DNA of 64,000 bases, from assembly GCA_021770095.1 (NCBI GenBank), contig JAETRQ010000006.1, forward strand, positions 62,001-126,000, written 5' to 3'. Source of the stretch: Eubacteriaceae bacterium. GTDB taxonomy: Bacteria > Bacillota > Clostridia > Oscillospirales > Acutalibacteraceae. Below are positions 61,126-61,511 of this stretch, piece by piece. The notes beneath the pieces were generated by a model. It was not told where the DNA came from, made no database searches, and worked only from the letters and a program-made list of their open reading frames with translations. The translations under genes were made by a program, and so were the position numbers. Numbering within the stretch: position 1 is the first letter of the stretch; every line of letters begins with the position of its first letter.

Positions 61126-61208
61126 GCGGGTATGGTGGAATTGGCAGACACGCAAGATTTAGGATCTTGTGGGAGACCGTGCAGGTTCAAGTCCTGTTAC
61201 CCGCACCA
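61126..61208 (+). tRNA. tRNA-Leu (anticodon UAG)
   Basis: Acceptor arms GCGGGTA (61126-61132) and TACCCGC pair, followed by A and an encoded CCA. The anticodon stem CAAGA/TCTTG encloses TTTAGGA, giving TAG at 61160-61162. The class II variable arm and T-loop GGTTCAAGTCC are intact. Start and end are clear. Confidence 0.96.
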
Positions 61209-61449
61209 ATGACAGAGGATGCTGTTAATGCTTCCTCTGTTTTATTTTGTAACGGACTTGAACCTGTGAAGGTCTGAGCGTGTATAAAACAGTCCGGTGG
61301 ACTGTTTTTAGCGAAGAGCGTGAGGAGGGTACTGTTGCTTTGCAACGGTCGACGAGCGAGAAATATGCAAGGCAATGCCGCAGCATATGGCAAGTCCTGT
61401 TACCCGCACCAATGACAGAGGATGCTGTTAATGCTTCCTCTGTTTTATT
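61188..61449 (+). repeat. 59-bp perfect direct repeat of tRNA-Leu(UAG) 3' end plus terminator, flanking a non-coding segment
   Basis: The last 21 bases of the tRNA and its terminator (61188-61246) recur without a mismatch at 61391-61449, 203 bp downstream. The 144 bp between hold a 10-bp hairpin AAAACAGTCC..GGACTGTTTT (61286-61308), a small GTTGC/GCAAC hairpin (61334-61346), and an inverted copy of the tRNA T-arm (61249-61274). No credible gene lies inside. This accounts for most of the 465-bp gap between comFC and the E2-like gene. Confidence 0.88.
61212..61248 (+). terminator. tRNA-Leu(UAG) terminator
   Basis: ACAGAGGA / TCCTCTGT (8-bp stem with two more inner pairs) followed by TTTATTTT. 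A second identical copy stands at 61415-61449. Confidence 0.85.
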
Positions 61450-61475
61450 ATGATTTCACTGTCGTTTTTATTTAA

Positions 61476-61511
61476 AAGAAAAATAAAAAGAGCATCGTGT
61501 GATGCTCTTTT
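61476..61511 (-). terminator. Terminator of the E2-like gene
   Basis: AAAAGAGCATC / GATGCTCTTTT (11 bp, GTGT loop). On the minus strand it is followed by TTATTTTTC. Confidence 0.85.

Follow-up and report, generated by a model that had tools for sequence, protein, structure and literature searches.

A segment behind a tRNA-Leu gene of an Acutalibacteraceae bacterium, probably a non-coding integrative mini-element of a large family

A segment of 203 bp behind the tRNA-Leu(UAG) gene of a Eubacteriaceae bacterium (assembly GCA_021770095.1) is interpreted here as a member of a large family of mini-elements that are non-coding, non-autonomous and integrative, and that would be inserted at the T-loop by a recombinase acting in trans. 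We put the probability of this interpretation at about 0.55. The units have a common architecture with a boundary at the T-loop, an inverted arm which matches the host gene and a conserved fold; they occur at many targets and in arrays, and a relative has an empty site. The family suggests a type of miniature insertion element that has not been described, and a literature search over open-licence PMC papers found no paper describing such units. The window referred to below is the whole stretch of DNA that was analysed, 64,000 nucleotides of contig JAETRQ010000006.1.

The features of the window locus are collected in Table 1. A sequence-only reading of this DNA had described a perfect 59-bp repeat of the tRNA end and its terminator, the copies lying 203 bp apart. 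The repeat is confirmed and is slightly longer, 62 nt with 98% identity (61188-61249 and 61391-61452), the sole mismatch being at position 60. It spans the T-loop (CAAGTCC), the CCA and the trailer hairpin, and both trailer copies take the same fold (-16.6 kcal/mol each); a scan for consensus terminators listed neither of the two hairpins. By our own arithmetic a 16-mer with at most one mismatch is expected within 4 kb about 5e-5 times per gene, so that a chance origin of the repeat is excluded. The inner 144 bp (61247-61390) had been called non-coding and hairpin-bearing, which agrees with what we find: the open reading frames essentially inside it are mechanical and none exceeds 68 aa; the folding of 61252-61400 is better than that of shuffled sequences both as RNA (z -3.1, 1 of 200 as good) and as DNA (z -2.75, 2 of 200 as good). 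Only tRNA matches exceed the Rfam gathering score in the window. A terminator-like hairpin on both strands lies at 61486-61511, between the tRNA unit and a convergent acyltransferase gene.

Table 1. Features of the tRNA-Leu(UAG) locus, in window coordinates
Feature	Position	Strand	Evidence
Host gene tRNA-Leu(UAG), intact, CCA encoded	61126..61208	+	ARAGORN; Rfam RF00005, 57 bits
tRNA tail copy 1 (T-loop to CCA), opening the direct repeat	61188..61208	+	21-nt identical run to tRNA end
Trailer 1: terminator-like hairpin (stem ~61211-61241) and T-run	61209..61249	+	Fold; 38 nt identical to copy 2
Inverted copy of the host T-arm (complement of 61182-61194)	61254..61266	-	Inverted repeat, 13 nt, 100%; also family-wide
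Conserved structured element	61252..61400	+	Covariance model R1, 135.9 bits; sequence itself in the R1 seed
Central hairpin P3, AAAACAGTCC-GGT-GGACTGTTTT, most widespread part of the family	61286..61308	+	
tRNA tail copy 2, without the 5' part of the gene	61391..61411	+	Direct repeat
Trailer 2: hairpin copy, 1 mismatch within the 62-nt repeat	61412..61452	+	Repeat and fold

Searched as DNA, the inner 144 bp gave matches in 36 of 60 genomes (own, genus and order), many of which cover only the central hairpin of about 21 nt. Among 20 stretches that were fetched, ten have a tRNA gene with an exact downstream copy of its last 14 bases, four a tRNA gene without such a copy and six no tRNA gene. An alignment (A1) and a covariance model (R1) were built from 21 elements. 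R1 matches 44 of 80 genomes of the genus (E<=0.001) and at least 89 of the 394 sampled genomes of the order, in at least 48 of 168 genera (E<=1e-4); the survey of the order is a lower bound because seven candidates per genome were scored. Seven exact pattern matches fall in named records, which are Oscillospiraceae, Ruminococcaceae, Eubacterium and Clostridia assemblies. The phage and plasmid sets searched hold no match to the family, nor did three exact patterns match any viral contig, and Rfam applied to 12 further loci returned only tRNAs and one Gut-1 RNA, the latter outside the unit at its locus (L057). Other body classes with an inverted arm, some of them degenerate, were seen at L292 (in genome G008), L053, L068 and L019; their hosts are tRNA-Leu(tag), Ser(gct), Met and Leu(caa), and some share the central hairpin only.

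From 101 matches of R1 we followed 84, dropping most of the further array units, repeat records and the weakest matches. A tRNA gene lies upstream on the same strand in 44 of them; 12 are at rpsI and 7 behind tmRNA genes (tmRNA detection switched on), and the remaining 21 of the 84 lie at contig ends, follow tRNA 3' halves or were not inspected. A unit was counted when a CCA-bearing gene is followed within 4 kb by a 16-nt copy of its tail with at most one mismatch. There are 121 such units, each closed by a copy of its own gene's 3' end, at 95 of 199 distinct tRNA and tmRNA genes of 29 kinds; this fraction is no prevalence because most loci were chosen through element matches. In an unselected census based on Rfam tRNAs, units follow 3 of the 40 genes of the window's genome and 6 of the 42 of genome G381, where two more have the inverted arm only and two of the genes had less than 250 nt of readable sequence. 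The unit length is 141-228 bp in 112 of the 121 units and 248-1994 bp in the other nine. The sequence-only reading had seen the expected footprint of a small element, too small for an integrase, that inserts at a tRNA 3' end and restores the gene. It is supported in part: the window insert has no ORF above 68 aa, units of this size prevail, and related bodies lie behind many tRNA genes, flanked by each local tRNA end. The inverted T-arm, the conserved fold, the arrays and the targets at tmRNA and rpsI had escaped that reading.

Arrays occur, and by eye some of them mix body classes at one gene (L071, L234). On the minus strand behind tRNA-Glu(ttc) of G381 (L357) an array consists of one 175-bp and three ~349-bp units with another body class. 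At L314, L317, L318 and L320 about 7-14 kb lie between the tRNA gene and the mini-units. L249 covers the same place as L320, and there the units come after a tRNA 3' half of the sort that an anticodon-type island would leave behind. Just behind a unit at L057, between tRNA-Ala and tRNA-Arg, Gut-1 RNA (RF01706) has two matches, at 1116-1191 and 1204-1277; they are on opposite strands, and only one of them exceeds the cut-off.

The rpsI loci form a variant. The C-terminus of uS9 was read in all 12, and a copy of the last 18 nt of the gene (at most three mismatches) follows in 11, the exception being L143. An inverted 9-mer of the gene end was found in only three (L135, L137, L139), and the body is on the strand opposite to the gene. 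The direct repeat is thus preserved at rpsI, with the body in reversed orientation and a less marked inverted copy.

The boundary of the units is at the T-loop. An identical run to the tRNA end starts 18-22 nt before the gene end in 78 of 93 genes, and in 111 units the second tail agrees with the host in 58-73% at positions -21 to -19 and in at least 90% from -18 on. The inverted arm of the same 111 units, placed by best fit to the host, matches it in 83-100% from -26 to -14 and drops to 12-37% in the acceptor stem; it is centred where the direct repeat begins. When 106 units are placed by an anchor that is independent of the host, the arm matches its own host in 77-100% by position. At informative positions 7.64 of 9 match the own host and 5.53 other hosts; the total is 810 of 954, compared with a maximum of 649 in 2000 shuffles of hosts, and the own host is the best or joint best in 91 of the 106 units. 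It should be noted that these statistics include tandem units, which are not independent. Among the bases at -18 to -14 at which second tail and host disagree, the arm agrees with the host in 22 and with the tail in 3; what is conserved is therefore not its pairing with the tail of its own unit. A preserved pairing of arm and own tail had been considered with a first count (host 138 of 149, tail 8) that was dominated by the edge of the T-loop, where the direct copy only begins, and it was given up.

A closing helix P1, formed by the arm with the tail, is followed in the body fold by P2, P3 and additional hairpins. Of the cells in A1, 92.2% pair (shuffled mean 86.5), and 22 of 47 pairs change on both sides, compared with a shuffled mean of 9.8; none of 500 shuffles is as high, and the signal is lost when partners are shifted by 1-3 columns. 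In the helix below the P3 hairpin, two pairs are usually non-standard, in 18 and 19 of the 21 rows. Wider sets of 140 rows, which were aligned to the model and so lean to it, contain 275 G-U and 75 A-C cells among 5887 when read on the + strand, one single pair giving 84 of the 275. The excess of G-U over A-C speaks for a folded + strand rather than for an inverted repeat in double-stranded DNA. In our own reading P1 and P2 together could represent a T-arm copy whose loop contains the inserted body.

The mean identity of bodies is 0.643 (n=86) within one genome at different hosts, 0.508 (n=167) between genomes at one kind of host, and 0.943 (n=17) for units that share genome and host; the comparison covers the 94 of 132 elements whose host is known, the fetched stretch containing none for the other 38. 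Part of the likeness within a genome could be due to concerted evolution. In eleven aligned pairs from the same genome the arm changes with the host and the body is kept where the host T-arms differ (L237/L238, L240/L242, L198/L199, L062/L109, L220/L235); pairs such as L206/L210 have identical host T-arms and are uninformative.

The sequence-only reading had also named strains with a single tRNA end as support. With one genome per species, the acyltransferase gene beside the unit has a match in 71 of 80 genus genomes, and 14 of the 30 loci that were fetched have tRNA-Leu(tag). In the syntenic genome G079 the end of comF precedes the tRNA gene and the acyltransferase gene follows it, and there is one tail with one terminator, so that such support is found in a relative. 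G088 has an empty site on the downstream side only, its upstream side being without a forward frame of more than 80 aa. At the same locus G008 carries a different body class with a tail copy, G024 a tail copy after a stretch of N, and others carry unrelated sequence. A frame that by eye resembles SIR2 begins directly after tRNA-Leu(tag) at L313 (genome G032).

We regard it as highly probable that the unit is a mobile insertion. The unit comprises a tRNA tail, a terminator, the inverted copy of the host T-arm and the folding body, after which comes the next tail. Its position is such that the tRNA remains whole, with the displaced 3' end behind the unit. A site-specific strand exchange at the T-loop probably underlies this; the recombinase would be supplied in trans and the chances that it is a tyrosine recombinase, as the sequence-only reading had suggested, are about even, this type being likelier than the serine type. 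The element's site would be the T-arm copy with the fold, perhaps used as folded single-stranded DNA, a substrate which we propose only tentatively. Repeated events at one gene would build arrays, and the elements may be active at present. More speculative still is the idea that the T-arm is the receiving site and that the single-stranded element shows the recombinase a mimic of it, the arm being re-fitted to each host and the body retained; the units would then be integron- or MITE-like and of a kind not described. If the main interpretation is true, we know of no class of elements with site-specific insertion that would be smaller; targeted insertion at many housekeeping RNA genes might then need no more than a 13-nt T-arm copy and a folded body. 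Repeats behind tRNA genes, possibly misread as tRNA fragments or assembly errors, would be explained, and the enzyme, if found, would give a small and retargetable integration system.

The same kind of mini-element might be moved by a serine recombinase, which we consider improbable. Serine recombinase (PF00239) matches occur in all ten element-bearing genomes checked, one lies about 1 kb from a unit (G399:C22), and the serine-recombinase islands of Dehalococcoides likewise target the T-loop of tmRNA, according to the part of PMC3146451 considered here. However, tyrosine recombinase (PF00589) matches occur in the same ten genomes, so neither type is tied specifically to the elements; in G399, which is listed as 99% complete, there are two matches to PF00589 and three to PF00239. 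One candidate tyrosine recombinase, the family at L261/L265/L266, was rejected: it is present in G242 and G381, and it is neither among the four G315 proteins nor among the nine of 12 G000 proteins that were recovered by signature. A Xer-like protein is common to these four genomes (48-68% identity) and looks like a housekeeping protein, and two Xer-like proteins scored below the cut-offs for integron integrases; no IntI was identified. The integrase stretches behind tRNAs that were read (L272, L283) show no such body. Between tRNA-Ser(cga) of G000 and the integrase gene at L272 there is an inverted T-arm piece, ATTCGAACC, which is possibly part of that integrase's own site.

To a similarly low degree the body may be a structured RNA that is transcribed behind the tRNA and pairs through its arm with the T-arm, its copying being due to an RNA function or an RNA route. 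The strong compensatory changes and the tolerance of G-U on the tRNA strand fit such an RNA, as does the arm, which follows the host tRNA more closely than the second tail of its unit. This is at variance with the hairpin that precedes the body, which is terminator-like though unlisted by the consensus scan, and with the promoter-like sites, which are not above shuffles (2 found, mean 1.5). The body at rpsI, being on the opposite strand, would not be co-transcribed with the gene, which also argues against an RNA. Reverse transcriptase matches were found in only two of the ten genomes, the window's genome being one of them, and a resident reverse transcriptase was rejected as general mover given its absence among the matches in the other eight.

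A target-duplicating insertion by an HUH/Y1 transposase or a Cas1-like integrase, in which the tail and the terminator are duplicated, is less probable again. In 36 of 93 genes the first trailer resembles the last, so that the repeat there takes in the terminator, as would be the outcome of a long target duplication; in the other 57 the two are unlike. In 15 of the 36 another inverted arm comes next, as it would in a unit that has been cut off; the window unit has like trailers and no further arm. With trailers alike in some genes and unlike in others, both the import of an own terminator and the duplication of tail and terminator are possible. A Y1 transposase, as would be expected with IS200/IS605 or REP/RAYT-derived elements, has a match in the window's genome, but such matches occur in only 5 of the 10 element-bearing genomes, for which reason a resident Y1 transposase was rejected as general mover, and target duplication leaves the inverted T-arm unexplained. 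An old tandem duplication of the tRNA end in place, followed by decay, would account for the near-identity of units that share genome and host, but is hardly credible with related bodies at 29 kinds of RNA gene and at rpsI and with the empty site of G079, which contradict a single-copy arrangement common to all relatives.

The preferred interpretation, a mini-element inserted at the T-loop by a recombinase acting in trans, may finally be compared with known systems. Integron attC sites combine inverted core copies with a fold of one strand and are found in arrays. The units resemble them in that the inverted T-arm and the direct core flank a foldable body and in that arrays could grow at one receiving site, as far as the partial descriptions of attC that were used go. 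Unlike in integrons, the body here is conserved in sequence, the target is the T-arm of tRNA and no clean gene cassettes were found. Gene cassettes were considered at L250, L251 and L209, where by eye a partial or degenerate tail lies between gene and unit, and at L324, where a truncated terminator does; these gene-bearing stretches are therefore treated as separate insertions. A mobile unit made of an ORF and an attC-like site was not seen, most units being too short for a gene. MITEs, IMEX elements and tycheposons are small or non-autonomous, use enzymes in trans and in some cases sit at tRNA genes; in a casual view of our units we noticed no transposase end repeats, dif site or genes. SCC elements are moved by serine recombinases.

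The units have the intact tRNA, the displaced 3'-end copy bounding the insert and the empty site in a relative that mark integrative elements, and no integrase gene inside, for which the 112 units of 141-228 bp are too short. Islander-type islands at tRNA and tmRNA genes, which have tyrosine integrases, are alike in the insertion into the 3' part of the gene, the restoration of the gene and the displaced fragment at the far end, as given in the part of PMC4383910 used here, in which their sizes peak at 13.6 and 39.9 kbp. The units differ from them in their length, the lack of an integrase gene, the conserved fold, the inverted T-arm copy and the arrays of similar units. In Dehalococcoides, according to the sections of PMC3146451 on these islands, serine-recombinase islands are inserted in the middle of the T-loop of tmRNA and stand in tandem with 20-bp repeats of the 3' end. 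These ssrA islands (DsiB) differ in having one target gene and in carrying genes, sixteen of them an integration module, and the same sections describe no structured non-coding body (PMC3146451). The ends of tRNA, tmRNA and rpsI genes are targets of tyrosine integrases in other bacteria, as stated in the portions of PMC4701971 and PMC4383910 considered. The choice of site, that is the T-loop and the tRNA, tmRNA and rpsI genes, is that of known integrases, whereas the small size, the lack of genes, the inverted T-arm and the fold are features of the units described here.
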